The translations under genes were made by a program, and so were the position numbers. Below are positions 2,622 through 23,964 of a stretch of DNA of 24,773 bases, one piece after another. The notes under the pieces are model-generated. The model did no database searches, was not told where the DNA came from, and saw nothing but the letters and a program-made list of their open reading frames with translations. The stretch is from IMG/VR virus record IMGVR_UViG_3300042691_027439, positions 1-24,773 of that record. One strand, written 5' to 3'. Position 1 is the stretch's first letter; each line of letters opens with the position of its first letter. The stretch comes from a virus.

Positions 2622-4076
2622 ATGAATCAGTTACAGTTACCAAAATTACGTAAAATCGATCCAAACAGACCTAAGAAAAAGAAAATTCTTTTACTTTCCG
2701 ACGACCTTCGAATGCATTCTGGTATAGCCACAATGTCTCGAGAGTTTGTATTAGGTACCGTAAAAGAGTTTGATTGGGTACAATTAGGAGCAGCGATTAA
2801 TCATCCAGATGCAGGAAAAATGTTAGACTTATCTGCGGATGTTGCTAAAGAAACTGGCGTCGATGATGCCTCGGTTAAATTAATGCCATATAATGGATAT
2901 GGTGATGCGAATGTATTAAATTATTTGATTAATACAGAAAAACCAGATGCTATATTACATTTTACAGATCCTAGATTCTGGGGATGGTTGTATCAATTAG
3001 AACATAGTGTTCGTCAACATATTCCAATAATGTATTATAACATATGGGATGATTTGCCATATCCTCATTGGAATGAACCATTTTATGAGTCATGTGATTT
3101 AATTATGAATATATCACGCCAGACTCAAAACATTGTTAAGAATGTGTTGCGCAAATTTCCTAAAGAAGAATGGGCAGTACAGTATGTACCACATGGTATC
3201 AATGAAACAAAATACTTTCCAATTAACAAAGAACATGAACAGTATACTGAGTTTGAAAAATTTAGTACTGATTTTAAGTCTAAAAATGATATTGACTTTG
3301 TAGTATTCTGGAACAATCGTAATATCAGAAGAAAACAACCAGGTGATTTAATTCTAGCATATAAATCATTCTGTGATAAATTACCAAAAGAAAAAGCCAA
3401 TAAATGTGCTTTGCTAATGCATACTCAGCCCGTAGATGAAAATGGTACGGATTTATTTGCTGTTAAAAATGCTATTTGTCCTAATTATAAAGTAATTTTT
3501 AGTGATCGCGCCGTTGATAATAAAACTATGAACTTTTATTATAACATGGCAGATGTAACTGTTAATATTGCATCTAACGAAGGATTTGGTTTATCAGGCG
3601 CAGAATCATTGATGGCAGGAACACCTATCATTAATAATGTAACTGGTGGTCTGCAAGATCATTGTCGGTTCGAAGATGAGTCAGGTAATTGGATTGCATT
3701 TACGACAGAGTTTCCTAGTAACCATAATGGTAAGTATACTAAATGTGGCCCATGGGCAAAACCAGTATTTCCAACTAATAGATCGCTTCAGGGTTCTATT
3801 CCTACACCATATATCTTTGATGATCGTGTTCGATTTGAAGATGTAGCAGATGCTATTATATATTGGTATGAAATGTCGCCAGACCAAAGAAAAGAAAATG
3901 GATTGAAAGGACATGCGTGGGTAAATGGTAAAGAATCAATGATGTCGGCCCGTCGTATGAGTGAGCGTTTTATTGAATGTATTAATACATGTTTAACAAA
4001 CTGGACTCCAAGAAAACGATTTACATTATTTAAAGTAGAACAAGAACCAAAATTTGATAAAGTAGGAATTATATGA
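2622..4076 (+). CDS. GT-B glycosyltransferase (group 1, GT4-like)
   Basis: This 484-residue protein looks like a retaining GT-B glycosyltransferase. The N-terminal domain begins at about residue 20 with KKILLLSDDLRMHSGIA, where the Gly contributes to the usual acceptor-side loop. The second domain holds the hallmark E-x7-E: E320 and E328 within NEGFGLSGAESLMAGTP, the donor-nucleotide site of GT4-type enzymes. The first 20 residues are an extra basic tail that includes LPKLRKI at 6-12, a peptide found again twice at the C-terminus of the next gene. The start is set by AAGGAG just upstream, and the gene ends in an ATGA overlap with the next glycosyltransferase. Sugar and acceptor cannot be told from sequence. 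The basic tail may dock the enzyme to a partner. Confidence 0.85.
   Translation: MNQLQLPKLRKIDPNRPKKKKILLLSDDLRMHSGIATMSREFVLGTVKEFDWVQLGAAINHPDAGKMLDLSADVAKETGVDDASVKLMPYNGYGDANVLNYLINTEKPDAILHFTDPRFWGWLYQLEHSVRQHIPIMYYNIWDDLPYPHWNEPFYESCDLIMNISRQTQNIVKNVLRKFPKEEWAVQYVPHGINETKYFPINKEHEQYTEFEKFSTDFKSKNDIDFVVFWNNRNIRRKQPGDLILAYKSFCDKLPKEKANKCALLMHTQPVDENGTDLFAVKNAICPNYKVIFSDRAVDNKTMNFYYNMADVTVNIASNEGFGLSGAESLMAGTPIINNVTGGLQDHCRFEDESGNWIAFTTEFPSNHNGKYTKCGPWAKPVFPTNRSLQGSIPTPYIFDDRVRFEDVADAIIYWYEMSPDQRKENGLKGHAWVNGKESMMSARRMSERFIECINTCLTNWTPRKRFTLFKVEQEPKFDKVGII
2637..2657 (+). repeat. LPKL(K/R)K peptide motif, copy 1
   Basis: These codons encode LPKLRKI (residues 6-12 of the first glycosyltransferase), preceded by LQ. 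The same peptide, as LPKLKKV, occurs twice near the end of the next gene. Synonymous codons differ between the copies, so the likeness is at protein level. Confidence 0.7.
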
Positions 4077-5401
4077 AACCATTTGTAGTAGTACAAGGTC
4101 CAGTAGCGACCAGATCTGGTTATGGAAATCACACTCGAGATTTAGTAACTAGTTTAATTAAATCAGATAAGTATGATATTCAGATTGTTTCATTACCATG
4201 GGGAAATACTCCTATGGATGCATTGGAACCTAATAACACTGATCATCAGGAAATAATGAAACGCGTTGCTGTACAAAACATTACACGACAGCCTGATGTA
4301 TTTATACAGATATCTATTCCAAATGAGTTTCAACCGCATGGTAAGTATAATATTGGCGTTACCGCTGGTATTGAAACAGATCAAGTATCAGCTGAGTTCA
4401 TCGAAGGTTGTAATCGTATGAATTTAATTCTTACAACATCTGAACATTCTAAGCAAGGTTTTTTAAATTCAACATATGAGAAACGAGATAAAAATACCAA
4501 TCAATCTTTAGGTACACTTCGTTTAGAAAAACCAATTGAAGTTCTTTTTGAAGGCGTAGATTTGAATCTATATACAAAGACCAATGATGTCAATGAACTA
4601 GTGTTAAATGAACTCAATTCAATAAAAGAAGGGTTCAATTTCTTATTTGTAGGACATTGGTTGAAAGGAGAGTTTGGAGCCGATCGTAAAGATATTGGAA
4701 TGCTTATTAAAACGTTTTGTGAAGCATTTAAAAATAAGTCATCGCAAAACAAACCAGGCCTGGTTATTAAGACTAGTCATGCCACATTTAGTATTATGGA
4801 CCGAGAAGAAATTATGAAAAAGATTAACATAATAACTGCTCCATATGGCAACAATGCTCCAAGTATTTATTTATTACATGGTGACTTAACTGATGATCAG
4901 ATGAATAGTCTATATAACCATCCAAAGGTTAAAGCTATGGTATCATTTACACATGGTGAGGGGTATGGTCGTCCATTATTAGAATTTACATTATCTGAAA
5001 AGCCTGTTATTGCAAGTAACTGGTCTGGTCATATTGATTTCCTAAAGCATGCCACTTTATTACCTGGAGAGATTAAAGAAGTGCATCATTCCGCGACAGA
5101 TAATTGGATTGTCAAAGGAAGTAAATGGTTTACTGTTAACTACGTATATGCTATATCAATATTACGTGACGTCATTGATAACTATAAAACATATCTTAAT
5201 ACAGCGAAGCGTCAAGCATATGTATCTCGTACTGAGTTTAATCTAGATAAAATGGCAGAAAAGTTTTGTGAGTATGTTGATGCAGGCGTTAATAGCGTTC
5301 CTAAGCAAGTACAATTACAATTACCTAAATTAAAGAAAGTTGGAGAGACTACAGAGGTTCCAAAGATTACATTACCAAAACTTAAAAAGGTTGAAGCATG
5401 A
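4073..5401 (+). CDS. GT-B glycosyltransferase with C-terminal LPKLKK tail
   Basis: This 442-residue protein is a second GT-B type glycosyltransferase. Its N-terminal domain opens with FVVVQGPVATRSGYGNHTRD, which carries the Gly-rich loop of group 1 enzymes, and the donor domain has E296 and E304 in the E-x7-E arrangement (THGEGYGRPLLE). The last 30 residues lie outside the fold and contain LPKLKKV twice, at 417-423 and 434-440. The same peptide sits at the N-terminus of the preceding glycosyltransferase, so the two probably share a binding partner or bind each other. It starts in an ATGA overlap with the previous gene and ends in another ATGA. The sugar donor is unknown. The pairing and the shared motif suggest that the two enzymes act as a unit. 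Confidence 0.83.
   Translation: MKPFVVVQGPVATRSGYGNHTRDLVTSLIKSDKYDIQIVSLPWGNTPMDALEPNNTDHQEIMKRVAVQNITRQPDVFIQISIPNEFQPHGKYNIGVTAGIETDQVSAEFIEGCNRMNLILTTSEHSKQGFLNSTYEKRDKNTNQSLGTLRLEKPIEVLFEGVDLNLYTKTNDVNELVLNELNSIKEGFNFLFVGHWLKGEFGADRKDIGMLIKTFCEAFKNKSSQNKPGLVIKTSHATFSIMDREEIMKKINIITAPYGNNAPSIYLLHGDLTDDQMNSLYNHPKVKAMVSFTHGEGYGRPLLEFTLSEKPVIASNWSGHIDFLKHATLLPGEIKEVHHSATDNWIVKGSKWFTVNYVYAISILRDVIDNYKTYLNTAKRQAYVSRTEFNLDKMAEKFCEYVDAGVNSVPKQVQLQLPKLKKVGETTEVPKITLPKLKKVEA
5321..5341 (+). repeat. LPKLKKV peptide motif, copy 2
   Basis: These codons encode LPKLKKV at residues 417-423, preceded by LQ as in copy 1. The codons differ at synonymous positions from the copies at 2637 and 5372. Confidence 0.7.
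5372..5392 (+). repeat. LPKLKKV peptide motif, copy 3
   Basis: These codons encode LPKLKKV at residues 434-440, preceded by IT and followed by the final two residues. It is 51 bases from copy 2, with a Thr/Glu-rich linker between them. Confidence 0.7.
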
Positions 5402-5865
5402 GTTTATTAAAAGCAGAGTATGATGAAGTATCACCAATTACAGGTAATACTTGTGTGTTAGTCGAAGCAATGGATAGCGGCATGAATTCATACATATGTA
5501 TGGAATCGGGTTATGTTAGTAACGAATATTTTAAAGTAGACAGTGAAATAGTCGAACAACATGAGCAAACCTTATCACAATTAATGCGTGATGTAAAATA
5601 TATTGATGAGTCTCGTGGGTTAGTATGGTATCCGGCATATATGCAATTTGAAAATATGGTATTGTATTGTGCTGGTACTAGTAAAGCAGATTTAGAATGG
5701 GATGTTGCATTTATAGTAGCAGTCGAAGCTTCAGAGAAAGAAAAATACCCAGTCCCAGGTAAGCCAGATGAATATTTTCAGTATCGTATTGATGTTGATA
5801 ATGCAGAACGATTTATAACATTTTCGGAAGCCATGGATAAATTATATGCTAATGTTTCGATATAA
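5398..5865 (+). CDS. Conserved-looking phage protein of unknown function
   Basis: I do not recognise a characterised family for this 155-residue acidic protein. It has no signal peptide or membrane segment. The N-terminal part (SPITGNTCVL, then SYICMESGYVSNEYFK) is like short proteins I associate with marine T4-like phages. The middle has WYPAYMQFENMVLYCAG, and a C-terminal half rich in acidic and aromatic residues looks alpha/beta. Its start overlaps the previous glycosyltransferase stop in an ATGA, so it is probably made with that enzyme. It is the only gene between the two motif-bearing glycosyltransferases and the rest of the sugar block without an enzymatic signature, which makes it a candidate partner or adaptor. 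That last point is inference only. Confidence 0.7.
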   Translation: MSLLKAEYDEVSPITGNTCVLVEAMDSGMNSYICMESGYVSNEYFKVDSEIVEQHEQTLSQLMRDVKYIDESRGLVWYPAYMQFENMVLYCAGTSKADLEWDVAFIVAVEASEKEKYPVPGKPDEYFQYRIDVDNAERFITFSEAMDKLYANVSI

Positions 5866-5902
5866 TTTGGAAAATGTATAATTTATTATTATATTAAGAT
5901 AT

Positions 5903-6514
5903 ATGAAAATTAGTTATGCGATAACAGTTTGTAACGAATTGGAGGAAATTAAACGTCTAATTCCTTTTCTTTTAGAACATAAACGTACTGAAGATGAAAT
6001 TGTTGTTTTATGGGATGAAAATGGTGATCTTAAAGTTTGGGAATATGTGATTAGTATTCCTGAACCTAGACATTTTAAAGATTACTTCAATAAAAATTTT
6101 GCAGACTGGAAAAACAAATTATCATTAATTTGTAAAGGTGATTACATCTTCCAAATTGATGCTGATGAAATACCCAATGAGTACCTAATTGAATCATTAC
6201 CCGAAATATTAGAAACAAATTCTCAAGTAGAAGCATATGTTGTACCTAGAGTAAATACAGTAGAAGGTTTAACTCAAGAACATATACAAAAATGGGGATG
6301 GCATGTTAATGAAAATGGATGGATAAATTGGCCAGATTATCAATGGAGGATATATAAAAATACTCCTGATGTTAAATGGAAAAATAAAGTACATGAAGTA
6401 TTAGATGGATATAAAACTATGGCTCAACTTCCAGCATATGAAGATTTATCTTTATATCATCCTAAAACAATAGAAAGACAAGAAAAACAAAACAATTATT
6501 ATAATACATTATGA
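5903..6514 (+). CDS. GT-A glycosyltransferase, GT2-like
   Basis: This 203-residue protein is a short family 2-like glycosyltransferase. It opens with ISYAITVCNELEEI, the usual first strand of the GT-A fold, and has the metal-binding DxD in QIDADE (D86 and D88) following a KGDYIF segment. The C-terminus (YHPKTIERQEKQNNYYNTL) resembles the ends of other phage and bacterial members I recall, so the protein looks complete despite its small size. No membrane segment is present. A 37-base AT-rich gap separates it from the upstream gene, and no Shine-Dalgarno sequence is obvious. The following gene begins 15 bases after its stop. Donor and acceptor are unknown. Confidence 0.82.
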   Translation: MKISYAITVCNELEEIKRLIPFLLEHKRTEDEIVVLWDENGDLKVWEYVISIPEPRHFKDYFNKNFADWKNKLSLICKGDYIFQIDADEIPNEYLIESLPEILETNSQVEAYVVPRVNTVEGLTQEHIQKWGWHVNENGWINWPDYQWRIYKNTPDVKWKNKVHEVLDGYKTMAQLPAYEDLSLYHPKTIERQEKQNNYYNTL

Positions 6515-6529
6515 AATTTAAACAACAAT

Positions 6530-7549
6530 ATGATTAAAATAAAATTATACGAGTCAGAAAAACATCGTAATGAATGTACTTTTCGTCCATTCTTATACGC
6601 GCATAATAGTATACGCGAAATTGGAATTGAGTTTACAACTGGTGATTCATATGACTATGCATGGATAGCTCAGGCCAGTTTTATTAATAAAAAAGTATCA
6701 TTAGAGCAATCAATTAATGATGGACTAGAATTTCTTTCGAAAATTTCTGGTGACTATATGTTAATTGATGGCCAAGACTCGACATCATTAATAGGCGCCT
6801 ATGAAGTATTTAAAGAATCTAACGCCTTGTTATTGCTAAAAAATAGTCTTCTTAAAGATCGTACTTTATATAAACAAGGATGGCAATTAGGTAGATATTA
6901 TTGGGGGTCTGGCGATTATAAATTAGAGGACTTTGATATGTACTCGGATCGTATAGTACTTTCTGGTACAAATTGGTTAATGACTCATTGGGCAGGAATA
7001 CAGCCGAAGTGGTATCAGTTAGAAAAGCAATACGATATATCTGCAATGTTTCAATATCCTACTAAAGAAATGGTATATGAACATGGGCATGAACAAAGTA
7101 TTCATTATGATCGTAATCGTAAAAATGTTATTGATATTATTAATCAGTTGCCATTCAATGTAGCTAAATTAGCTAACGGAGAACGTGTATCTATTGATGA
7201 ATATTATAATCGCATAATGGCATCACGTATTATGTTAGCTCCATATGGGTATGGCGAAATGACCATACGTGATCTAGACGCTGCAATGTTTGGTGCAATA
7301 TTAATTAAACCGGATATGAGTTATATTGATACTATACCTAATATATACATTCCAGACGAAACGTATATTACATGTAAGCATGATTTTAGTGATCTGCGAG
7401 AAAAAATAGAATTAATATTAGGAAATTATAAAGATTATCAATATATTATCGAAAATGCTAGGAAGACATTTTTAGATAAAATGCATCCGCATTATTTAGC
7501 AATACACTTACATAATATTTTTAAAAACTTAACACAAATTTCTATATGA
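6530..7549 (+). CDS. Probable GT-B glycosyltransferase
   Basis: This 339-residue protein has no DxD and no evident membrane segment. The C-terminal third looks like the donor-binding half of a group 1 or exostosin-like GT-B enzyme: from about residue 230, RIMASRIMLAPYGYGE is followed by RDLDAAMFGAILIKPD, in the position where these enzymes bind the nucleotide-sugar. The first 200 residues are diverged and include several Trp-containing stretches (for example GTNWLMTHWAG). The assignment to glycosyltransferases is therefore by fold pattern and context rather than by full family match. The stop overlaps the start of the RfbH-like gene in an ATGA, which ties it to deoxysugar production. Confidence 0.62.
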   Translation: MIKIKLYESEKHRNECTFRPFLYAHNSIREIGIEFTTGDSYDYAWIAQASFINKKVSLEQSINDGLEFLSKISGDYMLIDGQDSTSLIGAYEVFKESNALLLLKNSLLKDRTLYKQGWQLGRYYWGSGDYKLEDFDMYSDRIVLSGTNWLMTHWAGIQPKWYQLEKQYDISAMFQYPTKEMVYEHGHEQSIHYDRNRKNVIDIINQLPFNVAKLANGERVSIDEYYNRIMASRIMLAPYGYGEMTIRDLDAAMFGAILIKPDMSYIDTIPNIYIPDETYITCKHDFSDLREKIELILGNYKDYQYIIENARKTFLDKMHPHYLAIHLHNIFKNLTQISI

Positions 7550-8829
7550 TATTAAATCAAGATATTCATGCACTGATAGGTAACCATGTATCCCCGTATA
7601 TTTACAATGCTAAGTCATTTGTAGCCGGAACGACTCCTATATATTATTCAGGCCCATACTGGGACAATCGAGAAGCTGAGGCTGCAATATATGCATTTTT
7701 AAATGGTAAATGGATTACAACTGGGGAAAATGTATATAAATTTGAAAGATTGTTTGGTAAACGATTCGGTTCTAGATACAATCTTATGGTCAATTCTGGC
7801 TCTTCGGCTAATTTAGTACTAATAGCAGCTTTAAAGAAAAGATTTAATTGGATGGACGATGACGAAATAATTGTATCGCCAGTTGGCTTTGCTACGACAA
7901 TATCGGTTATTCATCAAAATCGATTAAAGCCTGTGTTTATTGATATTGAATGGGAAACATTGAATTTTGATTTGGATCAGTTGGAAGCTAAAATAACCCC
8001 GAAGACAAAGGCTATCTTTGTTTCACCGGTATTAGGTAATCCCCCTAACTTTGATCGATTGTTAGAGATTTGTGAAAAGCATGGATTGAAGCTTGTTGGT
8101 GATAATTGTGATAGCTTGGGAAGCAAATGGGATGGTAAATACCTTAACGAGTACTATGTAGCATTCTCAAACTCATTCTATCCAGCACATCATATTTCAA
8201 CGGGTGAGGGAGGAATGGTCTGTACCAATGATGAAGAATTAAAAAAGCTCATGATGAGTATTGCTTGGTGGGGAAGAGATTGTTACTGCGTGGGAGCTGC
8301 TAATTTAATGTCATGTGGTACATGTGGTAAAAGATTTGATATGTGGTTAGATTCGTATAATGGTATTATTGACCATAAATATGTATTTTCTAATATGGGG
8401 TATAATTTAAAACCGTTAGATTTACAAGGAGCTATTGGTATAGTACAGTTAAGTAAATTAGATGAAATAGAAACGAACAGAAAACATTCTAAAGAACGTC
8501 TAGAAAAAATATTTACAGAAAATATACCAGGTTTAAGAGTACCAGACACTTTAGCTAAATCAGACCCATGTTGGTTTGGAACGCCTTTTATATGTGAGGA
8601 AGAGGGATTAAAACATAGATTAGTTCAATATCTCGAAGATAATAAAATTCAAACTAGAAACTATTTTGCTGGAAATATTTTATTACATCCTGGATATTCA
8701 TTTCTTGATGATGCATCAAAGTATCCCGAAGCAAATAAAGTATTAGATAAAGTATTTTTTATCGGAGCAGCGCCTCATTATAACGAAGAAATATTTAATT
8801 ATATAGAAGAAGTTATTAAAAAGTTTTAA
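7546..8829 (+). CDS. rfbH: RfbH/E1-type sugar 3-dehydratase (DegT family)
   Basis: This 427-residue protein belongs to the DegT/DnrJ/EryC1/StrS fold. The PLP lysine is replaced by histidine: SFYPAHHISTGEGG puts H215 where aminotransferases have Lys. This swap is characteristic of the PMP-dependent dehydratases E1 (RfbH/DdhC/AscC) and ColD. Four nearby cysteines, C245, C247, C257 and C260 in the segment after WWGRD, point to E1, which binds a 2Fe-2S cluster there; ColD lacks it. D186 (GDNCDS) is the expected cofactor-ring partner. E1 removes the 3-hydroxyl of CDP-4-keto-6-deoxyglucose on the way to 3,6-dideoxyhexoses and needs an E3 reductase, which I do not see in the window. The length is typical. 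An RmlD-like reductase follows one base later. The sugar nucleotide actually used is not proven. Confidence 0.86.
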   Translation: MILNQDIHALIGNHVSPYIYNAKSFVAGTTPIYYSGPYWDNREAEAAIYAFLNGKWITTGENVYKFERLFGKRFGSRYNLMVNSGSSANLVLIAALKKRFNWMDDDEIIVSPVGFATTISVIHQNRLKPVFIDIEWETLNFDLDQLEAKITPKTKAIFVSPVLGNPPNFDRLLEICEKHGLKLVGDNCDSLGSKWDGKYLNEYYVAFSNSFYPAHHISTGEGGMVCTNDEELKKLMMSIAWWGRDCYCVGAANLMSCGTCGKRFDMWLDSYNGIIDHKYVFSNMGYNLKPLDLQGAIGIVQLSKLDEIETNRKHSKERLEKIFTENIPGLRVPDTLAKSDPCWFGTPFICEEEGLKHRLVQYLEDNKIQTRNYFAGNILLHPGYSFLDDASKYPEANKVLDKVFFIGAAPHYNEEIFNYIEEVIKKF

Positions 8830-8830
8830 T

Positions 8831-9550
8831 ATGGATAATATAGTTATTTTGGGCGATGGTTTATTAGGAACCGAATTAGTCAAGCAGACGGGTTGGAATT
8901 ATATATCGAGAAAAAAAGATAATTTTGATATTCGGAAGGAAAAAACATATTATGATTTCTTTTTAGAAAATTATGATTCTGTAGCATGGTGGCCAAAATA
9001 TAAAACAATTGTAAATTGTATAGCTAATACAAACACGTATTCTAATAATAAAGAATTACATTGGGATATTAATTTTAAAAGTGTTGTACAGTTAACCAAC
9101 TTTTGTACAAATATGAATATCAAGTTAGTACAAATATCAACCGACTATGTATATACAAACTCAGTTACAAATGCCAGCGAAGACGATATTCCAATACATG
9201 GTAATAATTGGTATAGTTATACTAAACTACTAGGTGATGGGTATGCTCAATTAAATGCAAATAATTTAGTTTTGCGGGGTACTCATAAGCAAACGCCATT
9301 TCCGTATGATAGCGCTTGGGTAGATCAGATAGGTAATTTTGATTACGTTGATATTATTGCAAAATTATACATAGAACTGATTAATAGAAATGCATGTGGA
9401 TTATTCAATGTCGGTACTGATCTAAAGACAATGTTAGATTTAGCTAAACGTACAAATGTAAATTCGTCATATTCATTTATTCCTAATACACAAATACCAT
9501 CTGACGTGTCGATGGATGTTTCAAAACTTAAAACTTTTTTAACTTTATGA
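8831..9550 (+). CDS. RmlD-like NAD(P)-dependent sugar reductase (SDR)
   Basis: This 239-residue protein is an extended short-chain dehydrogenase of the dTDP-4-dehydrorhamnose reductase type. It has the cofactor loop GDGLLG (G8, G10, G13), the STDYVY strand at 103-108, and the catalytic YSYTK (Y128, K132). It is shorter than typical RmlD proteins (about 290 residues), with the loss mainly in the C-terminal substrate half. Placed one base after the RfbH-like gene, it probably reduces the 4-keto (or a related) group of the 3,6-dideoxy product, as the reductases of ascarylose or abequose pathways do. It ends with an ATGA overlap into a glycosyltransferase-like gene. Fold and catalytic residues are seen directly; the substrate is inferred. 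Confidence 0.83.
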   Translation: MDNIVILGDGLLGTELVKQTGWNYISRKKDNFDIRKEKTYYDFFLENYDSVAWWPKYKTIVNCIANTNTYSNNKELHWDINFKSVVQLTNFCTNMNIKLVQISTDYVYTNSVTNASEDDIPIHGNNWYSYTKLLGDGYAQLNANNLVLRGTHKQTPFPYDSAWVDQIGNFDYVDIIAKLYIELINRNACGLFNVGTDLKTMLDLAKRTNVNSSYSFIPNTQIPSDVSMDVSKLKTFLTL

Positions 9551-10512
9551 ATTTTGCGTTAATTGTTGATAAGTGTAAAGTAGAGTCTTATATTGTAAGA
9601 GATAAAAAGGCATACAAATTATCTAATCCAGAGTTACCATACCAATTCCATCATTCAGTAGGCAATGAATGTTTTATTGGATTTTGGGGATATCCATTTG
9701 TATTCGGCGGACATTTTATAAATTGGTCTGAATGGAATACGTTACCTGACTTAAATTTAGATTTAATATTTGTAGCCATTGAATCAGATTTTCAAAGATA
9801 TACTATTGCGGAGTTGAGACGCACATATCCAAATGCCACAATTGTAGCAGTAATAAAAGAGACATGGAATTGGAATCAACAGTGTATGCAACGATTACAA
9901 GTGTATAATCAATGTGATCATGTGTTTTCATGCGTAAGTGAACGACACTTCCAAACGTATTTACCTGAGTTATCGCAATGTACCACGCCAGTATCTTATA
10001 TGCCTCAACCAGTTAATATTAATTATTTGCAGGATCATTTTTATAATGAAATACGTGATGAAGTAATCTTTTCATACTTACCGGTTTGGAACGCTTCGCG
10101 TATTGGACGTACTGAAGAATTTACTAAGTATATAAGTGATAAATATAACATCCCATATATACGTACGCATACTAATAATAATACTAATCAATGGCACGAT
10201 TTTTTAAATTTATGGACTCCATGTACTTTTCATTTTAATTTAGATCCTATGCCAATGTTTCCAGGTCAGCAAGCTATGCAATGTGCTGCACTAGGAGTAA
10301 TACATATAGGGGGGGAAAATGATTCGCATAAAATGTTATGGCCTGAAACTGCTACGAATGATTTTGATCGATTAGAATATTGTTTTAGTACGTATTTAAA
10401 TGATTATAACAAACGCTTAGCAGTAATTCAGTCGGCATTTGATAAACTTAATGATATATACTCGTATAATTCTATAAAAAGTAAAACACTAACTACTTTA
10501 AATTTGCTATGA
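9547..10512 (+). CDS. GT-B-like glycosyltransferase, diverged
   Basis: This 321-residue protein is not a clear member of a named family. It begins with a Rossmann-like strand (FALIVDKC), has an internal strand at about 73-78 (LIFVAI), and near residues 238-256 carries the pattern FPGQQAMQCAALGVIHIGG. This resembles the donor-loop region of group 1 glycosyltransferases and matches the layout of the gene at 20929, which has FPLNCAYLGIPCIG. The two are probably distant paralogues. No membrane segment or DxD is present. It is bracketed by ATGA overlaps with sugar-nucleotide enzymes on both sides, so it may transfer the sugar they make. Confidence in the exact function is moderate. Confidence 0.55.
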   Translation: MNFALIVDKCKVESYIVRDKKAYKLSNPELPYQFHHSVGNECFIGFWGYPFVFGGHFINWSEWNTLPDLNLDLIFVAIESDFQRYTIAELRRTYPNATIVAVIKETWNWNQQCMQRLQVYNQCDHVFSCVSERHFQTYLPELSQCTTPVSYMPQPVNINYLQDHFYNEIRDEVIFSYLPVWNASRIGRTEEFTKYISDKYNIPYIRTHTNNNTNQWHDFLNLWTPCTFHFNLDPMPMFPGQQAMQCAALGVIHIGGENDSHKMLWPETATNDFDRLEYCFSTYLNDYNKRLAVIQSAFDKLNDIYSYNSIKSKTLTTLNLL

Positions 10513-14396: not shown

Positions 14397-14404
14397 TATA
14401 AATA
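14397..14404 (+). promoter_or_regulatory. TATAAATA in the largest gap of the block
   Basis: This is a perfect match to the T4 late promoter consensus, in the only sizeable gap inside the sugar block. The predicted start would fall at or on the ATG at 14409, giving an essentially leaderless transcript. That makes a role uncertain, although the position in a gap is suggestive. Confidence 0.28.
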
Positions 14405-14408
14405 AAAT

Positions 14409-16558: not shown

Positions 16559-16559
16559 T

Positions 16560-17078
16560 ATGACTAAAAATGATTTTGGCGGTTGGGCCATTCAAGAATC
16601 TTGTTTTAATTTTATTAAACAAATTTTACCAGAAGGATCAACTATATTAGAACTTGGTAGTGGTATAGGTACATATCACCTTAGTAAACATTTTAAAATG
16701 TACTCTATAGAAAATTATACAGATTGGTTAGATAAATACGAATCTACATATATTTACGCTCCAATTAAATACTATAACCAAAGCTGGCCAGCACCAGATG
16801 TACCTGGGGAGCATGGTAGTTTGCAGAGCGGATGGTATGATCCTGATTTAGTTAAAAAGGGACTGCCGACAGAGTATGATTTAATTTTAGTTGATGGACC
16901 AAATGGATCATTTGGGCGCGGCGGATTTTTAAAACATATAGACCTTTTTAATCACAATGTGCCTATCGTGTTTGATGATATAAATCGAGAACCCGAATAT
17001 ACGCTAATGGTTAAAGTGTCTGAATATTTAGGTAAGCCATATAATCATGTCGATCAATTTACTGGATATATTCTATGA
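16560..17078 (+). CDS. Small class I methyltransferase
   Basis: This 172-residue protein has a classical SAM loop, ILELGSGIGTYHLS (29-42), an acidic loop after it (MYSIENY), and YDLILVDGPNGSFGRGGFL in the place of the post-motif region. VFDDINREPEY follows. It resembles compact methyltransferases found beside glycosyltransferases, but is shorter than most, and I cannot name its target. It starts one base after the previous stop and ends in an ATGA overlap with the next gene, so the two methyltransferases and the following GT2-like gene are probably one translation unit. Confidence 0.72.
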   Translation: MTKNDFGGWAIQESCFNFIKQILPEGSTILELGSGIGTYHLSKHFKMYSIENYTDWLDKYESTYIYAPIKYYNQSWPAPDVPGEHGSLQSGWYDPDLVKKGLPTEYDLILVDGPNGSFGRGGFLKHIDLFNHNVPIVFDDINREPEYTLMVKVSEYLGKPYNHVDQFTGYIL

Positions 17079-18085
17079 GATTAACCAATAACTATATCAT
17101 AGGCGTACATGTCATGTTCTATGAAATCGAAATGTTACCAGAATATATTGATGCATGTATAGGAATGGTAAATGCTATTAGTAATAAAGAAAACATAACA
17201 TTTCATTTCACATGGAACGTGTCAGAATATTTTGAAAGTATTGACACCTCAATTATTTCACTACAAGAGTTAAATAATAGATTTTATCAACAAGTAGATC
17301 GTATAGAACGTATTGGATGTAACTTAATAGTCGATGTAAAAAATAACGACATGCCAGTATATAATATTGCTGATTATAGACGAGATCTTAATTACAATTA
17401 TTGTACTCAATTTGATTTTATATTATGGGGGGAAACAGATTCATTATGGCCACGTGAGACATTACAGATCATTGAAAATATTAATGAATATGCAATATCA
17501 CACATGATACATAAATATATACTATTTTTCAGTGAACGTAAAATGTGGGATCCGTCATGGCAGGTAATTGAACATAATGATTTTACAAATGAGCAATTTA
17601 TTGATACACCTGAATGGAATATAAACCATTGGGCATCAAGTAAATCATATATGACATTGGACCAGATGTATGATATAAATGATAGGGCAGATGATTTGGA
17701 TATACATATACTAAAAACACCTAAATTTGATGGGTCATGTTTAGTAATTAAATCAGATCTGATTAAATCAGGTGTAAATATTCCGCAATCATTATTATGT
17801 TCGGGTGAAGATACTAGTTTTGCGGATATGGCAAAACTATTGTTGGGAGACCAATTTGTACAGTTTGTAATTAAAAATATATTACGTGTACATAATCGTC
17901 GACATCCTAAAAAACGTTTATATATTAGTAATGAAAATAATCCACGTGGATTTTGTGGTATTGAAAAAGGAAACTGGTGGAACATATTACATGATATGTC
18001 TAAAGAAAATCTAGCATCGTTAAGGTATCAGTATAAACCCTATACCATGAATGATGTATTTAATAAAATAAAACAAGGAAAATAG
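17075..18085 (+). CDS. Diverged GT-A-like glycosyltransferase
   Basis: This 336-residue protein has weak family 2 signatures. It opens with NNYIIGVHVMFYEIEMLPEY, a first strand followed by a helix, then NIADYRRDLNYNYCTQFDFILWGETDSLWP, where E120 and D122 (GETDS) sit in the position of the usual DxD. A later stretch, GSCLVIKSDLIKSG with CSGEDTSF after it, matches the catalytic-acid area of these enzymes. The C-terminal part is basic and contains HNRRHPKKRLYIS. It appears soluble. It begins with an ATGA overlap. The next gene follows after two bases. The function is inferred from fold pattern and context, so I hold it at moderate confidence. Confidence 0.6.
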   Translation: MRLTNNYIIGVHVMFYEIEMLPEYIDACIGMVNAISNKENITFHFTWNVSEYFESIDTSIISLQELNNRFYQQVDRIERIGCNLIVDVKNNDMPVYNIADYRRDLNYNYCTQFDFILWGETDSLWPRETLQIIENINEYAISHMIHKYILFFSERKMWDPSWQVIEHNDFTNEQFIDTPEWNINHWASSKSYMTLDQMYDINDRADDLDIHILKTPKFDGSCLVIKSDLIKSGVNIPQSLLCSGEDTSFADMAKLLLGDQFVQFVIKNILRVHNRRHPKKRLYISNENNPRGFCGIEKGNWWNILHDMSKENLASLRYQYKPYTMNDVFNKIKQGK

Positions 18086-18087
18086 TT

Positions 18088-18438
18088 ATGAAAATGCCAA
18101 TTAGTGAAATTGCAGATCGTTATTCAATTGCATTGCTAAAACGAGATAGAGCTAATGCAGATAATCAGGTAGAACTTGATACATTATATACAGAGTTAGA
18201 TAATTATGCTAGTTCCATGGAATTTGTACATAAGCTTAAAGAAGTTAATGGTAAAATTTGGGACTTAGAATCTGATATTAGAAAAGGAAAAGAAGCCGAA
18301 TTAGGATTAGAAGAAGTAGGTCGACGTGCAATTGCAATTCGTGAACTTAATAAAATTCGTGTAGGTTATAAAAATGAAATGGTTAAAATCTACAATGAAG
18401 GGTTTGAAGATATAAAGATGAATCATGCCAGTGCCTAA
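18088..18438 (+). CDS. DUF6165-like helical protein
   Basis: This 116-residue protein is almost entirely helical and charged, and follows the layout of DUF6165: an ISEIADRYSIALLKRDR opening, a KLKEVNGKIWDLESDIRKG middle, and an IRELNKIRVGYKNEMVKIYN end. Members are found in bacterial LPS and capsule gene clusters and in phages; no activity is established that I know of. It may form a helical-bundle scaffold for sugar enzymes, though this is a guess. AAGGAAA lies ahead of the ATG. Its end overlaps the deacetylase gene by 14 bases. No signal peptide or membrane segment is present. Confidence 0.65.
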   Translation: MKMPISEIADRYSIALLKRDRANADNQVELDTLYTELDNYASSMEFVHKLKEVNGKIWDLESDIRKGKEAELGLEEVGRRAIAIRELNKIRVGYKNEMVKIYNEGFEDIKMNHASA

Positions 18439-19081
18439 AAATATTTTAGCTATCGGAGCACACCCAGATGATATTGAATTTGGGTGTTCTGGTACACTTA
18501 AACGACATATTAACGACGGCGACTGTGTTATTATGTTAGTTATGACAAGTAGTGACGTACTGGATGCATATACTCATGAAATTACACGTAATTCTGATAT
18601 TAGTTTATCAGAAGCTAAATGTAGCGCAAAATATTTAGGAGCTGAATTAATAATTGGACCATTTCGTGACACCGAAGTACCGTTTAACGGAGAATCGGTT
18701 GCATTTATTGAACGAATTATAAAAAAATATAATATTGATACGGTGTATACTCACTGGGGCGGTGATACACATCAAGATCATATTAATACACTATCGTCTA
18801 CAATGGCCGCGGCTCGTTTAGTAAAAAATGTTTTATGCTATGAACAAGTACCATTGCCTAGGATAACAACAACATATCCTATAGCAAATTATATTGTAGA
18901 TATTACTGAAACCATGTTAGATAAATTACATGTATGTAAATGTCATACAAGTCAAATTGATAAGTTTTATAAACATGGGTTTAGTATGATAGATAATATT
19001 GAAACACTTGCAAAATATCGAGGTATACAATCAGGCACAACATATGCAGAAGCTTTTAATATATTAAAAATGGTTGTGTAA
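18425..19081 (+). CDS. PIG-L/LmbE-family deacetylase
   Basis: This 218-residue protein is a zinc-dependent N-deacetylase of the PIG-L family. The hallmark AHPDD is at 12-16 (H13 and D16 as zinc ligands, D15 as the general base) and the third ligand is H119 in THQDH, giving the full catalytic set. YTHWGGDTHQDH and the FRDTEVPFNG segment are typical. Such enzymes remove an N-acetyl group from GlcNAc-type sugars. Here it could expose an amine on a sugar or sugar nucleotide so that neighbouring enzymes can modify it. It overlaps the DUF6165-like gene by 14 bases and its stop shares a base with the start of the compact aminotransferase gene. No membrane anchor is seen, unlike eukaryotic PIG-L. Confidence 0.88.
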   Translation: MPVPKNILAIGAHPDDIEFGCSGTLKRHINDGDCVIMLVMTSSDVLDAYTHEITRNSDISLSEAKCSAKYLGAELIIGPFRDTEVPFNGESVAFIERIIKKYNIDTVYTHWGGDTHQDHINTLSSTMAAARLVKNVLCYEQVPLPRITTTYPIANYIVDITETMLDKLHVCKCHTSQIDKFYKHGFSMIDNIETLAKYRGIQSGTTYAEAFNILKMVV

Positions 19082-19773
19082 TGTATAAAAAATATACATA
19101 TGAAATATCATCTGGTACAGATGCATTAATACTTGCAATGAATCAGTTAAATACTAAAAAAGTAATCATACCTACATATACATGCACAGATATTTTACGG
19201 GCCGTACAAACATATGGATGTGAATATTTGATAGTAGATTGTAATTTAGAACTTCAAATAGATACTGATGAGGTTATTAAATATGCTAAAGACTATGACA
19301 CTGTTATAATTCCTCATATGTTTGGCATACGTGCAGATGTTAAAAAAATTAAAAAAAATACAAACTTAAAAATAATTGAAGATTTAAGTCAGTGTCATGG
19401 ATTATCTAATTTAGGTAAATATGCTGATATAGTAGTATCATCAACAAATAAGAGCAAATGGATTGATAAGAACGGCGGCGGACTTATATTTAGTGATATG
19501 CCAATACAAAATTTATTAAGTTATGATTTTTCGGTGCATATAGAAACAATTAATAAAAACTTAATTCGTAGAACTGAACTAGCTAACGAAATAAAAGAGT
19601 CCGGACTGAAATTAATTGGAAGTGAAAGTTCTTGGTTACGTGCAATGTATTATACTAAAAAAATATCAACTCGTATGCCATATGTACCATTACATATTTT
19701 AGATAATACATTAGGAAATTTCAAAATTAATCAATATATTAACAACATCAATTGGATATCAATTATAGTATGA
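19081..19773 (+). CDS. Compact DegT-type aminotransferase (230 residues)
   Basis: This protein keeps the core of a sugar aminotransferase of the DegT/DnrJ/EryC1/StrS family in only 230 residues, against about 370 in usual members. It has SGTDALI (11-17), the IPTYTC segment (30-35), HMFG (79-82), the IIEDLSQCHG loop with D101 and Q104, and SSTNKSKWIDKNGGG, in which K126 fits the PLP lysine by its distance to the glycines. The N-terminal arm of about 40 residues and most of the C-terminal domain are missing. There is no leftover fragment upstream or downstream, so it is a shortened protein rather than an obvious pseudogene. Its start shares one base with the deacetylase stop. Whether it is active is not known. 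It may need a partner for its missing domain. Confidence 0.72.
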   Translation: MYKKYTYEISSGTDALILAMNQLNTKKVIIPTYTCTDILRAVQTYGCEYLIVDCNLELQIDTDEVIKYAKDYDTVIIPHMFGIRADVKKIKKNTNLKIIEDLSQCHGLSNLGKYADIVVSSTNKSKWIDKNGGGLIFSDMPIQNLLSYDFSVHIETINKNLIRRTELANEIKESGLKLIGSESSWLRAMYYTKKISTRMPYVPLHILDNTLGNFKINQYINNINWISIIV

Positions 19774-20363
19774 ATAATCAACAAAAAATGATGGATTGGT
19801 ATAACAATTCATTGAACACATATGGAGAAACCGATTTTAGATCACTAACATGGGGATCTGAGGATGGTGGGTCTGCTAGGCAACGATATGAACAAATGAA
19901 TGATGAAATATCGTTTAAAGATAACTCTATTATAGAATTTGGGTGTGGCTGGGGATCTTTTTTTGATTTTGGATTTACATGTAAAGAATATACGGGGCTA
20001 GATATAAATACTCGATTTATACAGTTAGCTTCAAAAAAACATCCGTTTATAAATTTTATCGAATCAGATGTTTTATTATATAATACCAATAAACAGTTTG
20101 ATTTGGCTATATCATCTGGCGTAGCTGGTAATCAAGGAGGCCCAGCAGATCATCCAACCAAGTTAAAGCAATATCTAACTTTAATGATCAATCATGCTAA
20201 TAACGTGTTAGTTAACTTTCCTAGTACATGGGCTACTATACGATCACATAATATAGAATATTTTTCTCCAGCATCGACACTTGAAATTGCTCTTCAAGTT
20301 ACTAATAATGTAACATTGATACATAAAAGTAATAAAGATTTTTTATTAAAATTACAGCGATGA
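19770..20363 (+). CDS. Class I SAM-dependent methyltransferase
   Basis: From the ATG at 19770, this is a 197-residue protein. It has IIEFGCGWGSFF (54-65) as the SAM motif, GLDINTRFIQLA with an acidic residue at the second strand, and a later VLVNFPST strand. An ATG at 19752 is in frame and would add six residues; I prefer 19770 because it makes the ATGA overlap seen across the block. It sits between the compact aminotransferase and the WbqC gene. It may methylate an amino sugar nitrogen or a hydroxyl of the sugar, but the target is unknown. The stop overlaps the next start in an ATGA. Confidence 0.77.
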   Translation: MNNQQKMMDWYNNSLNTYGETDFRSLTWGSEDGGSARQRYEQMNDEISFKDNSIIEFGCGWGSFFDFGFTCKEYTGLDINTRFIQLASKKHPFINFIESDVLLYNTNKQFDLAISSGVAGNQGGPADHPTKLKQYLTLMINHANNVLVNFPSTWATIRSHNIEYFSPASTLEIALQVTNNVTLIHKSNKDFLLKLQR

Positions 20364-20932
20364 AAATAGCAATACATCAACCAGAACATTTTCCATATTT
20401 AGGATTCTTTCAGAAAATGCAAGCAGCTGACTTGTTTGTAATTCTCGATGATGTGCAATATACAAAGGGTAATTTTCAAAATAGAAATAAATTTTTAAAT
20501 AGTAATGGAATAGAAGAGTGGTTTACGGTTGAGTTAGAGCGTCATGCTAATAAAAAACTAATTAATGAGATATATGTTAGTGACAATATGCAATGGAAAA
20601 TAAAGATAATAAAAAAATTACAGCAAAATTTTCATGTTGACATGTCAAAAATATATCAATATGAAAAATTAATCGATATTAATATTGCTTCAATACAGTA
20701 CTGTAAAGATAAATTGAATATAACGACACCTATAGTTTATAGTTCTAGTTTAAATATCAATAGTGTATCATCACAGCGATTAGCCGAAATATGTAAACAA
20801 TTAAACGCGACGGAGTATATATCTGGCATTGGCGGTAAACAATATTTAGATGAAAATATTTTCACATGTCCAGTTACATATTTTGTCCCAGATGTTAAAA
20901 ATTATTATACAACACTACAATATATTTTATGA
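20360..20932 (+). CDS. WbqC family protein
   Basis: This 190-residue protein matches the WbqC-like family, first seen in O-antigen clusters. The opening MKIAIHQPEHFPYLGFFQKM, followed by ADLFVILDDVQYTKGNFQNRN, is the family signature. The remainder has a YISGIGGKQYL segment near the end. WbqC proteins commonly sit beside DegT aminotransferases and glycosyltransferases, and are suspected to take part in aminosugar or acyl-group modification, but I know of no confirmed reaction. It begins in an ATGA overlap with a methyltransferase and ends in another ATGA. Being three genes from the deacetylase fits a four-gene amino-sugar decoration module. Confidence 0.85.
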   Translation: MKIAIHQPEHFPYLGFFQKMQAADLFVILDDVQYTKGNFQNRNKFLNSNGIEEWFTVELERHANKKLINEIYVSDNMQWKIKIIKKLQQNFHVDMSKIYQYEKLIDINIASIQYCKDKLNITTPIVYSSSLNINSVSSQRLAEICKQLNATEYISGIGGKQYLDENIFTCPVTYFVPDVKNYYTTLQYIL

Positions 20933-21861
20933 AAATAGCATTTTTTACAGAAGCTGGTTATAACGGTAATGTGCCTAGGACAAATACTAATATGCGTACT
21001 GACCAAGCTTGGATTTGCGCATTAGATGCCATACATTTTAATGTAATGCATACACCATCAGAACAATTCGATATTGGCATTATTATTATTCCTAAAGAAC
21101 ACAATCGAGAAAAATTAGCTAATCAAAATTATCCATTGATATCAAATCTACGTAAGGTATGTAACAAAATAGCTATAATGCAAGAAGGTACACATTGGGA
21201 CTGGATGGAAGATTCAGTGAATACAATGTGTTGGTTTTATAATCAATTACTAGAAGCAGATTTGTTATTATGTCATAATGATATTGATGTTAAGTATTAT
21301 ACTGGACTTACTAATAAGCCGTGTTATGTAATGCCAACTTTAATGATAGAAGATAATATAAAAATATCTGAACATAAACATGATCAAGTATTTGTAGCGG
21401 GTAACTGGCATCAAACATATAGAGGTTTCGATGCTTGGATTATAGGACAAGAGTTTGGATTGCCAATGAATAGTTTTAAAGCTGGTAAATATCGTCACGG
21501 CGAACAAGAAGTTACTGGTATGACGTATCTCCCATGGATGGATTGGTCAGCTTTTATGTTTGAATTATCAAAATGTAAATATGGGGTGCAGACATATGAG
21601 ACATCAGCAGGACAATTTCCATTAAACTGTGCATATCTAGGAATACCATGTATAGGTTATAATCAAGTTAATACACAAAGACTATTACACCCCAATTTAT
21701 CAGTTGATGTAGGCGATGTTTATTCAGCACGGATGTTAGCACAACAATTAACTACTGATATTGATTTTTATAATCAGTGTAGTTTAGAATGTAAGCAATT
21801 ATATAATGCACTATACAGTGAAACTGTTTTTATTAAAAACATTAAAGAAATTTTAAAATGA
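20929..21861 (+). CDS. GT-B-like glycosyltransferase, diverged
   Basis: This 310-residue protein has a Rossmann-like opening (MKIAFFTEAGYNG), an internal strand DIGIIIIPK, and a donor-loop-like region at 229-243 (QFPLNCAYLGIPCIG). That region matches the layout of the gene at 9547 (FPGQQAMQCAALGVIHIG), so I treat the two as distant paralogues. It has QEGTHWDWMEDS near residue 90 and VFVAGNWHQTYRG at 155-167 at the start of the second domain. No membrane segment is visible. It lies between ATGA overlaps with WbqC and the large GT2-like gene. The function is inferred by fold and context. Confidence 0.58.
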   Translation: MKIAFFTEAGYNGNVPRTNTNMRTDQAWICALDAIHFNVMHTPSEQFDIGIIIIPKEHNREKLANQNYPLISNLRKVCNKIAIMQEGTHWDWMEDSVNTMCWFYNQLLEADLLLCHNDIDVKYYTGLTNKPCYVMPTLMIEDNIKISEHKHDQVFVAGNWHQTYRGFDAWIIGQEFGLPMNSFKAGKYRHGEQEVTGMTYLPWMDWSAFMFELSKCKYGVQTYETSAGQFPLNCAYLGIPCIGYNQVNTQRLLHPNLSVDVGDVYSARMLAQQLTTDIDFYNQCSLECKQLYNALYSETVFIKNIKEILK

Positions 21862-23051
21862 AAAAAATAACATTTGTCATACCGAGTAGAAATAACTTAG
21901 AATTTTTAAAACTATCATATCGTTCTATACGAAATCTTGTTAATACACATGATATACTAATATTAGATGATTATAGCATTGATGGTACAAGAGAATGGCT
22001 AGAATCATTAAATGATGATAATCTAATTACATACTACAACCCAGGGCCAGACCGTATTGGAATTGTCGGAATGTTTGATAAGGGTATTGAAATGGCACGT
22101 ACGGAAATTATATTTGCATTTCATGCTGATATGATAGCTGGCCCTAATTTAGATGTTAATATACTTAAACATCTTAAACAAGGTACAGTAGTATGTGCGA
22201 CACGAATTGAACCGCCGCTCCATCCACCTGGGCCAGAAAAAATTACTCAAAATTGGGGAAATGAAGCTAACGACATTAATATTGACTCTATAATAAGTTC
22301 AATTGCTATTTTTGAAGATAAACATAAAGATAAAACGACAGAAGGAATATTTGCACCATGGTGCATGTATAAATCAGATTATTTAGCAGTAGGCGGACAT
22401 GATGAGTTATTTGCGCCACAGAGTAAAGAGGATTCTGACTTATTCAATCGATTTGTATTAGCTGGATATAATGTTATTCAGTCATGGGATGGCCTAGTTT
22501 ATCATTTTACTAGTCGCGGCAGTAGATTTAATAAATACGCCGGTGGTGATACTGGTAAAAATAGTAATGAATGGATTTACACGACTACACGTAACGGCAA
22601 AGAATTTATACGTAAATGGGGACACTTTGTTAAACATGATGAATTAATGAAACCTATTATACCACATAAACGTAATATTGCATTTGTAGTCAAGAATTGT
22701 AATTTACCTTTACTCGAAGCTTTAGAACCATGGTGTGACCGTATTTATGTTGATGAAGTATTTAGTATAGGAAGAGCACATGACTATATAGAACAAGAAC
22801 AATCTAATACTAAATTTGATTTACGTAAAAGAGTTTTATATATTGGAAACAATTATCCAGAAGGAGAAAATGATGTGGTTGTGGTATTTGATGCAAATAG
22901 AGTTACAGAACAAACATTTTATATGATACAGAATATATCTGATATCGTAACGGATACAAATGACGTTGGGGAATTTGAAGTTGATTGTTTAACTATAATA
23001 ATCAATAGTTTAGAAACATATGAACATAATTTAATTAAAATAAAAAAGTAA
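21858..23051 (+). CDS. GT2 glycosyltransferase with extra C-terminal domain
   Basis: The first 250 residues of this 397-residue protein are a GT-A family 2 domain: ITFVIPSRNN, then DILILDDYSIDGT (D37/D38 as the nucleotide-binding acidics), RIGIVGMFDKGIEMA, and FHADM at 88-92 where a DxD would be. A catalytic-acid region follows (PQSKEDSDLFNRF, E196-D197-D199), then W-D-G with YHFTSRGSR. About 125 residues after that form a second, unrecognised domain with alternating strands (NIAFVVKNC, RVLYIGNN, DVVVVFDAN, CLTIIINS). It may be another Rossmann-like unit that positions the acceptor. The gene is the last glycosyltransferase in the block and is followed one base later by the GalE-like gene. Confidence 0.78.
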   Translation: MKKITFVIPSRNNLEFLKLSYRSIRNLVNTHDILILDDYSIDGTREWLESLNDDNLITYYNPGPDRIGIVGMFDKGIEMARTEIIFAFHADMIAGPNLDVNILKHLKQGTVVCATRIEPPLHPPGPEKITQNWGNEANDINIDSIISSIAIFEDKHKDKTTEGIFAPWCMYKSDYLAVGGHDELFAPQSKEDSDLFNRFVLAGYNVIQSWDGLVYHFTSRGSRFNKYAGGDTGKNSNEWIYTTTRNGKEFIRKWGHFVKHDELMKPIIPHKRNIAFVVKNCNLPLLEALEPWCDRIYVDEVFSIGRAHDYIEQEQSNTKFDLRKRVLYIGNNYPEGENDVVVVFDANRVTEQTFYMIQNISDIVTDTNDVGEFEVDCLTIIINSLETYEHNLIKIKK

Positions 23052-23052
23052 A

Positions 23053-23964
23053 ATGAAACATGCAGTTATTGGCGGTGCCGGATTTATTGGGCATCATATT
23101 GTTAACAAATTAATTGAACGTGGCGATGACGTCATCGTGATTGATAATTTAAGTACAGGTACATGTGAAAATGTAAATGAAAAAGCTAAGTTCCATCAGT
23201 TTGATATTACAGATTCTGTGGCTGTTAAAGTTATATCAGATTTATTATATGGCGTTGATACGGTATATCTTACGGCGGCCTTAGCTAGGGTTCAGCCTTC
23301 GATGGTCGACCCAGTGACGTTTAATAAGGTCAATGTTAACGGCGTACTTAATGTATTAGAGGCATGTCGTAAAGTAAAAGTACGACGTGTGGTATATTCA
23401 GCCTCGAGTAGTGCATATGGCGATACTAATGTATTCCCAACACCAGAAGAAGGTACGGAAAAAAATCCATTGAGTCCATACGGATTACAAAAATATATCG
23501 GAGAACAGTATTGTAAATTATATAGCCAGATATTTGATTTGGATACGGTGTCGCTTCGTTATTTTAATGTATATGGAGAAGGAATGCCATTGGAAGGCGC
23601 ATACCGTACTGTTATTAGTATTTTTGGAGAACAATATAAACTAGACAAACCTTTAACATATACAAATGATGGTGAACAGCGTAGAGATTTTACATATGTA
23701 ATGGACGTAGTAGCTGCTAACATATTAGCAGGTGATAATTTATATCCATTAAATGGCGATGTATTTAATGTAGGTAATGGTGATAACTTCTCGGTAAATG
23801 AAGTTATGGATATGTTTGGTGGACCGAGAGAATTTTTAGAGAATAGAATTGAACCTAACTGTACATTGGCAGATAATAGTAAATTACGTGAAAAGTTTGG
23901 CTGGGAACCTAAAGGTGATTTACCAACCTTTATCGAACGGTATAAGAAAGATCTAAAGTCATAA
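23053..23964 (+). CDS. GalE-like NAD-dependent sugar epimerase/dehydratase
   Basis: This 303-residue protein is an extended SDR close to the UDP-glucose 4-epimerase group. GGAGFIG (7-13) binds NAD, DNLSTG at 31-36 is the next segment, YSASSSAYGD carries the catalytic Ser area, and YGLQK (Y143, K147) is the catalytic pair. RYFNVYGEGMP and RRDFTYVMDVVAA match the substrate end of the family. It is probably an epimerase or a 4,6-dehydratase that supplies a nucleotide-sugar to the block; which reaction is not settled by these motifs. Its codon composition looks less AT-rich than the middle of the block. It is the last sugar gene here. Confidence 0.85.
   Translation: MKHAVIGGAGFIGHHIVNKLIERGDDVIVIDNLSTGTCENVNEKAKFHQFDITDSVAVKVISDLLYGVDTVYLTAALARVQPSMVDPVTFNKVNVNGVLNVLEACRKVKVRRVVYSASSSAYGDTNVFPTPEEGTEKNPLSPYGLQKYIGEQYCKLYSQIFDLDTVSLRYFNVYGEGMPLEGAYRTVISIFGEQYKLDKPLTYTNDGEQRRDFTYVMDVVAANILAGDNLYPLNGDVFNVGNGDNFSVNEVMDMFGGPREFLENRIEPNCTLADNSKLREKFGWEPKGDLPTFIERYKKDLKS

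Follow-up and report, generated by a model that had tools for sequence, protein, structure and literature searches.

The window analysed here is the whole of IMG/VR viral record IMGVR_UViG_3300042691_027439, a genome fragment of 24,773 bases, and it carries a glycan-synthesis island of 26 consecutive plus-strand genes (i01–i26, positions 2622–23964), behind which lies p1, a gene for an 82-residue protein. This run of genes, described in an earlier note made from the sequence alone, is real: its open reading frames (ORFs) were checked, overlaps occur at 17 of the 25 gene junctions, and the total coding length amounts to about 100% of the span. The island is placed 3′ of the end of a GroEL-like gene and of genes for a gp62-type clamp loader, a PD-(D/E)XK nuclease and a SLOG-fold protein (Table 1). 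Megablast of the window against phages returned no match. The label T4-like stands because gp62 lies in the window and gp43, gp44 and gp45 in its relatives, where gp44 and gp45 are recognized upstream by PHROG, together with a polymerase B cluster.

A search of IMG/VR with i01 returned 80 loci at 58–98% identity. In the clustered loci, syntenic upstream replication genes are followed by i01-i02-i03-i04, with or without i05, and then by sugar genes that differ nearly every time. Fourteen loci were extended downstream, 13 of which reach the right border, giving with the window 14 complete islands from i01 to p1, each 16–27 kb long with 20–32 genes. The left end i01-i02-i03-i04 and the right end i25 plus p1 are present in all 14, as is i18 in mid-island, while homologues of i14 and i15 each occur in 12 of 13. 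Clustered at 35% identity and 60% coverage, the island proteins fall into 152 families, 105 of them private to one island and 12 found in at least 10 islands. The 144 variable proteins tallied are mostly epimerases/dehydratases, methyltransferases, DegT enzymes and glycosyltransferases (GTs). Median identity is 69% for i01, 61% for gp62, 66% for the nuclease and 48–50% for i03–i05; by this sequence measure, i01 evolves as slowly as the replication genes. We therefore assign with high confidence a fixed-frame architecture with an exchangeable interior, the main, comparative feature of the locus, which the earlier note had overlooked.

Most of the proposed enzyme content is borne out by profile and structure comparison. 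Eleven of the 12 predicted GTs are supported (i01, i02, i04, i05, i12–i15, i18, i24 and i25), eight of them by Pfam or PHROG (i01, i02, i04, i05, i12, i13, i15 and i25), but i08 matches nothing, including when its profile is run against the PDB. Among six proposed nucleotide-sugar enzymes, i06, i07, i09, i21 and i26 are confirmed whereas i10 resembles RmlD only weakly (E 0.03); among four methyltransferases, i11, i16 and i22 match Pfam and i17 does not. The deacetylase i20 is of the PIG-L type by PF02585, and i23 is WbqC by PF08889. The label DUF6165-like for i19 is rejected, no match being found at values up to E 0.5. An aminotransferase role for i06 is also unlikely: because RfbH is its nearest relative (E 3e-110), a His occupies the pyridoxal phosphate (PLP)-lysine position and an Fe-S-like Cys motif is present, i06 is probably a 3-dehydratase whose product would be a 3-deoxy sugar intermediate. 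For i03, fold searches (Foldseek, BFVD, VIA) gave nothing beyond one uncultured-phage homologue, and no function is assigned. In most relatives as in the window (2622–2670 and 5300–5400), i01 carries an LPKL(K/R)K motif near its N-terminus and i02 has two copies near its C-terminus; no other protein among those clustered shows it. The motif may serve to dock a partner common to both, with i03 as one candidate.

The absence of membrane machinery is the second prominent property of the locus. No transmembrane segment is predicted in the 26 proteins, the highest 19-residue Kyte-Doolittle mean being 1.34, and among the 375 proteins of the 14 complete islands none exceeds one hydrophobic segment, 11 of them showing a single borderline one. 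A candidate N-terminal membrane anchor of i16 was rejected: its hydrophobic stretch requires the ORF to be extended to 15851, and since relatives measure 183–204 residues, the start is placed at 15956, without the anchor. A Pfam scan and direct searches of the window found no Wzx, initiating transferase, Wzy_C or Glycos_transf_4. Likewise, in 13–20 related records, three complete genomes among them and with positive controls used, Wzx (PF01943), Wzy/WaaL (Wzy_C, PF04932) and initiating transferase (PF02397, Bac_transf) are absent, and the WecA-type family PF00953 gave one sub-threshold frame with stops and none over cut-off. Thus, neither membrane helices in the block nor flippase or polymerase genes elsewhere, either of which would have spoken against a soluble acceptor, were found across the 14 islands and these records. 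The reported lack of nucleotidyltransferases holds for the window, which is without PF00483 and PF12804, and PF00483 is also absent from the related records searched; however, the relatives G011 and G014 carry PF12804 over cut-off, so this absence is not general for the group. Soluble, cytoplasmic assembly of the glycan is accordingly predicted with high confidence.

Table 1. Island genes, bordering genes and related loci (positions are those of the window unless a locus or contig is named)
Feature	Assignment	Position	Strand	Evidence	Occurrence
g1	Phage GroEL-like gene, 3′ end (context)	3–221	+	phage GroEL cluster c12, E 7e-27	
g3	T4 gp62-like clamp loader A subunit (context)	490–939	+	PF16790; phrog_225 E 3e-21	78 loci
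g5	PD-(D/E)XK nuclease (context)	1236–2174	+	PF12705	83 loci
g6	SLOG-fold protein, left border (context)	2141–2578	+	PF10686	77 loci
i01	GT4-type GT, opens conserved 5′ module	2622–4076	+	PF00534 1e-5; phrog_2170 3e-14; best PDB profile chlorovirus B736L 1e-14	13/13 islands
i02	GT4-type GT, LPKLKK-motif tail	4073–5401	+	phrog_2170 4e-19; B736L 1e-4	13/13 islands
i03	Conserved 155-aa protein, 5′ module partner	5398–5865	+	pLDDT 92 model, no PDB match	13/13 islands
i04	GT2 GT, GmaR-like	5903–6514	+	PF00535; PDB GmaR 2e-13	13/13 islands
i05	GT (Glyco_trans_1_2)	6530–7549	+	PF13524 4e-5; POGLUT2 1e-3	10/13 islands
i06	RfbH-like DegT-family 3-dehydratase (probable)	7546–8829	+	PF01041; NF011936 RfbH 3e-110; His for Lys, Cys motif	
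i07	RmlD-like reductase	8831–9550	+	PF04321	
i08	Possibly GT-B-like	9547–10512	+	no Pfam or PDB profile match	5/13 islands
i09	UDP-GlcNAc 4,6-dehydratase-like (PseB/FnlA type)	10509–11444	+	PF02719 2e-40; PseB 1e-47	
i10	Weakly RmlD-like reductase	11419–12141	+	E 0.03	i09-i10 pair in 5 islands
i11	Methyltransferase	12142–12732	+	PF13578	
i12	GT2 GT	12729–13475	+	PF00535	
i13	GT	13456–14349	+	PF13524	
i14	GT8-like GT	14409–15209	+	clusters with i15	12/13 islands
i15	GT8 GT	15202–15966	+	PF01501	12/13 islands
i16	Methyltransferase	15956–16558	+	PF13578	7/13 islands
i17	Methyltransferase-like by eye	16560–17078	+	no Pfam match	
i18	GT-A-fold GT	17075–18085	+	Foldseek COLGALT1 7e-9; VIA Z 17 to LH3	13/13 islands
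i19	No family match	18088–18438	+		
i20	PIG-L/BshB1-like deacetylase	18425–19081	+	PF02585 5e-20	
i21	Truncated DegT aminotransferase-like protein	19081–19773	+	PF01041, profile 40–189 of 360	
i22	Methyltransferase	19752–20363	+	PF08241 9e-5	
i23	WbqC	20360–20932	+	PF08889 8e-44	
i24	GT-B-like GT	20929–21861	+	PDB profile, BshA-type GT 7e-5	10/13 islands
i25	GT2 GT, conserved 3′ module	21858–23051	+	PF00535 3e-12	13/13 islands
i26	GalE-type epimerase, conserved 3′ module	23053–23964	+	PF01370 4e-59	12/13 islands
p1	82-aa right border gene	23983–24231	+		right border in 13/13 islands
Tri-domain protein	GT4-GT25-2OG oxygenase	L138:2–2278 (G010 11898–14177); L139:4051–6201 (G002)			
GT + TGT loci	Between polymerase B and gp45, upstream of the window's left end	L024:1583–3978; L018:1665–3915; similar loci			

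The i01-i02-i04 module extends well beyond the clade of the window. Profiles detect homologues of the three genes, in the same order, in the complete genomes of phages immuto (Flavobacterium), Mel-JY01 (Microcystis) and, more distantly, RM378 (Rhodothermus), and in a 143-kb contig, G002; i03 is present in immuto and G002 and was not found in Mel-JY01 or RM378. The module-bearing phages differ in replication genes and in host phylum. A gp23 capsid gene is present in immuto, Mel-JY01, RM378, G002 and a further contig, G010, and was not found in the window fragment or the incomplete contigs of its clade; the phage portal family PF07230 likewise has no match in the window, itself a fragment. The island of immuto (vB_FspM_immuto, Immutovirus, MW353175) occupies the same site, after DUF3310/PD-(D/E)XK genes, and keeps the order i01-i02-i03-i04-DegT through to epimerase-i25, but it is smaller (about 11 kb, 13 genes), lies in a phage with a family A polymerase, and lacks detectable i05, i14, i15 and i18. 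Its products are named in the record, and function tests were found in no text.

Scanning of 84,980 prokaryote genomes for i01 with exact peptide patterns matched six contigs, all inside metagenome-assembled bins; five carry phage replication or other phage genes along with the i01-i02 module, and the sixth is a fragment only. Judged by this gene content, the module is viral as far as tested and the cellular matches are mis-binned phage contigs, although a scan by exact patterns may miss distant cellular homologues. The module-bearing phage contigs (L132–L136) represent contamination of public metagenome-assembled genomes labelled Pelagibacter, Euryarchaeota and Gammaproteobacteria.

Taken with the soluble enzyme set, this distribution favours, at a probability of about 0.62, a lineage-variable glycan that would be assembled in the cytoplasm on phage structural proteins. 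The hosts of the module-bearing phages have no obvious common surface glycan and the phages share virion proteins; a virion acceptor is favoured because the core is common to phages of hosts with unlike surfaces. The earlier proposal of a soluble, probably virion, acceptor survived the membrane-machinery searches and gains support from solved relatives and from GTs in structural modules, though the evidence on the acceptor itself is indirect. In profile searches, the nearest solved relatives are B736L for i01 and i02 and the flagellin transferase GmaR for i04, while i05 is weakly nearest to the protein O-glucosyltransferase POGLUT2. The chlorovirus capsid protein is glycosylated by the virus, the substrate of B736L itself not being settled (PMC4691112).

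GTs in or beside structural modules occur in three relatives. In the distant relatives G002 and G010, a 759-residue protein combining GT4, GT25 and 2OG-oxygenase regions is encoded between gp23/PhoH and head-completion/tail-sheath genes; its make-up recalls LH3 and the hydroxylase-glucosyltransferase with which mimivirus modifies collagen-like protein, a kind of protein that G002 also encodes. In Mel-JY01 (L116:2–8427), a collagen-like fibre with 149 Gly-X-Y repeats and a structural protein are followed by a 1226-residue GT4+GT9/TibC-like fusion. A PF13640 hydroxylase search of the window clade found nothing, and the same search missed the weak domain in G002 and G010. The COLGALT1/LH3 match of i18 was considered as a sign of a hydroxylysine acceptor and set aside, many other GT-A enzymes lying within about 2 Z units. 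As separate observations, one collagen-like protein of G002 (1536 residues, L127:12655–17262) combines an S74 chaperone domain with an intein-like splicing domain, the Mel-JY01 fusion carries the annotation FkbM methyltransferase, and Mel-JY01 has a separate 2OG hydroxylase at 146829–147140.

Several points weigh against a virion acceptor. The virion glycan of this clade is predicted from genes alone. The capsid- and fibre-adjacent GTs are not island genes, and the genomes that show them are G002, G010 and Mel-JY01; none was seen in the clade of the window, whose contig G001 is incomplete and yielded no gp23. Likeness to protein glycosyltransferases goes no further than family or fold and does not identify the acceptor; RfbH, PseB, WbqC, GT8 and GT25 enzymes are typical of lipopolysaccharide (LPS)/O-antigen loci; and the island sits after replication genes, not late structural genes. 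Moreover, soluble glycosyltransferases can also use lipid A-core or host lipid-linked glycans.

In the main rival reading, which we consider unlikely, the target is the host surface, where lipid A-core, O-chain or another lipid-linked glycan would be remodelled by the island during infection, for example for superinfection exclusion, its soluble enzymes modifying inner-leaflet host intermediates and host transporters exporting the product. The enzyme content is indeed O-antigen-like, and lipid A-core assembly uses soluble or peripheral glycosyltransferases and needs no phage flippase. Hypervariable GT regions of pelagimyophages have been read as host-surface modification (PMC7029224), as have the sugar genes of cyanophage P-SSM2. 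Set against this, i01-i02-i04 is kept in phages whose hosts (Bacteroidota, Rhodothermota and a cyanobacterium) have different surface glycans; conservation of i01 equals that of the replication genes; and the related records yielded neither a membrane-linked GT nor an initiating transferase or ligase.

In pelagimyophages and cyanomyophages, the hypervariable host recognition cluster (PMC7029224) is likewise a large region with GTs and sugar enzymes in T4-like marine phages, but its site is the interval from VrlC to gp14 and it includes tail fibres, whereas the present island follows gp62 and PD-(D/E)XK/SLOG genes, lacks fibre genes and has a fixed frame. P-SSM2, cited earlier as precedent, is indeed a T4-like phage rich in sugar genes: its one genome has 24 of them, split between two clusters, and the text consulted reports no conserved frame. 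Wzx/Wzy-type O-antigen and capsule loci also keep their ends conserved while the GTs and nucleotide-sugar genes between them vary, but the island is without Wzx, Wzy, initiating transferase and export genes. Chloroviruses and mimiviruses (PMC4691112) share virus-encoded sugar pathways and GTs, with B736L nearest to i01 and i02 and a mimivirus GT-hydroxylase fusion acting on a collagen-like protein; they differ in being eukaryotic viruses, and the likeness of i01 and i02 to B736L covers the C-terminal GT domain only. Among bacterial viruses, mycobacteriophage GTs are reported to glycosylate capsid and tail tube (Freeman et al. 2023, as cited in PMC12619734). As in viral protein glycosylation, GTs and nucleotide-sugar enzymes are here virus-encoded and cytoplasmic. 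We know of no comparable swappable multi-gene island in mycobacteriophages, and no description of a fixed-frame, exchangeable, membrane-free island was found in the open-licence literature, which was partially covered.

Glycosylation of modified bases in phage DNA is a further reading, and an improbable one. The island adjoins replication genes, and the genes of the window clade include one of TGT/DpdA-like type (family c11), a GT next to it (c20 or c22) and homologues of FolE, QueD and QueE; because of these TGT/DpdA-like, FolE, QueD and QueE genes, its DNA probably carries 7-deazaguanines. However, the modified-base pathway is not present wherever the GT module is: Mel-JY01, RM378 and G002 have the i01 module and no detected TGT/DpdA, QueD, FolE or PF00303 hydroxymethylase-type gene, and the contigs L132, L134 and L135 carry i01 and i02 with no c11, c20 or c22 in the fetched stretch. 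DNA is ranked below virion and host surface because the i01 module occurs without 7-deazaguanine genes. In addition, the dedicated c20/c22 GT is already paired with the TGT, and base modification would not be expected to need about 26 variable genes. A TET/JBP search matched nothing, its controls included. A last reading, that auxiliary metabolic genes (AMGs) of host origin have for the most part simply piled up in the variable interior and make no joint product, fits the high turnover (105 of 152 families private) but is very improbable given the dominance of sugar-related families, the tight packing and the same framing genes in 14 of 14 islands.

Under the preferred reading of a virion glycan, the whole island, lying behind the replication genes, would be transcribed as a single, tightly packed unit. 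The enzymes i06, i07, i09, i10, i20, i21, i23 and i26 would turn host UDP-, dTDP-, GDP- or CDP-sugars into rare, partly deoxy-amino or dideoxy sugars, and i01-i02-(i03)-i04-i05 would then start the glycan and attach it directly to an acceptor in the cytoplasm, the likeliest being at least one structural protein, of capsid or fibre, that all of these phages possess. The near-universal GTs i14, i15 and i18, together with the exchangeable middle genes, would extend and methylate the chain, and i24-i25-i26 would supply its outer parts or caps, yielding a lineage-specific sugar coat made without lipid carrier, flippase or polymerase. As a tentative extension, put at a little under even odds, the virion coats of this widespread, mostly uncultured phage group would be serotype-like and arise from a capsule-locus-like cassette with fixed priming and capping genes, acting entirely in the cytoplasm, with hydroxylysine-type glycosylation of collagen-like fibres in some relatives. 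Speculatively, the phages could benefit from a surface that varies and so counters recognition on the side of the host or the environment, or from a change in adsorption.

Should the virion carry the glycan, phages would own a modular surface-variation locus comparable to bacterial capsule loci, and strong selection on marine phage particle surfaces (adsorption, grazing, decoys, antiphage surface recognition) would be implied. Since immuto and Mel-JY01 are in culture, the question can already be put to the test. The analysis also provides a frame and names for the 'LPS genes' of marine viromes, usually filed as host-surface AMGs.

Outside the island, the interval between DNA polymerase B and gp45 in the relatives contains a GT4-like gene (c20 or c22) beside a TGT/DpdA-like gene with a DSGGFQL motif, the TGT-like gene being present in 39 loci. 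Family c11 was called TGT from this motif and from homology to ACP17 gp123; its profile had no match in the PDB. In phages X1, ACP17 and BUCT-ZZ01, a c20/c22-type GT adjoins TGT, FolE, QueD or QueE genes, and the c20/c22 GT is a candidate glycosyltransferase for 7-deazaguanine in DNA.

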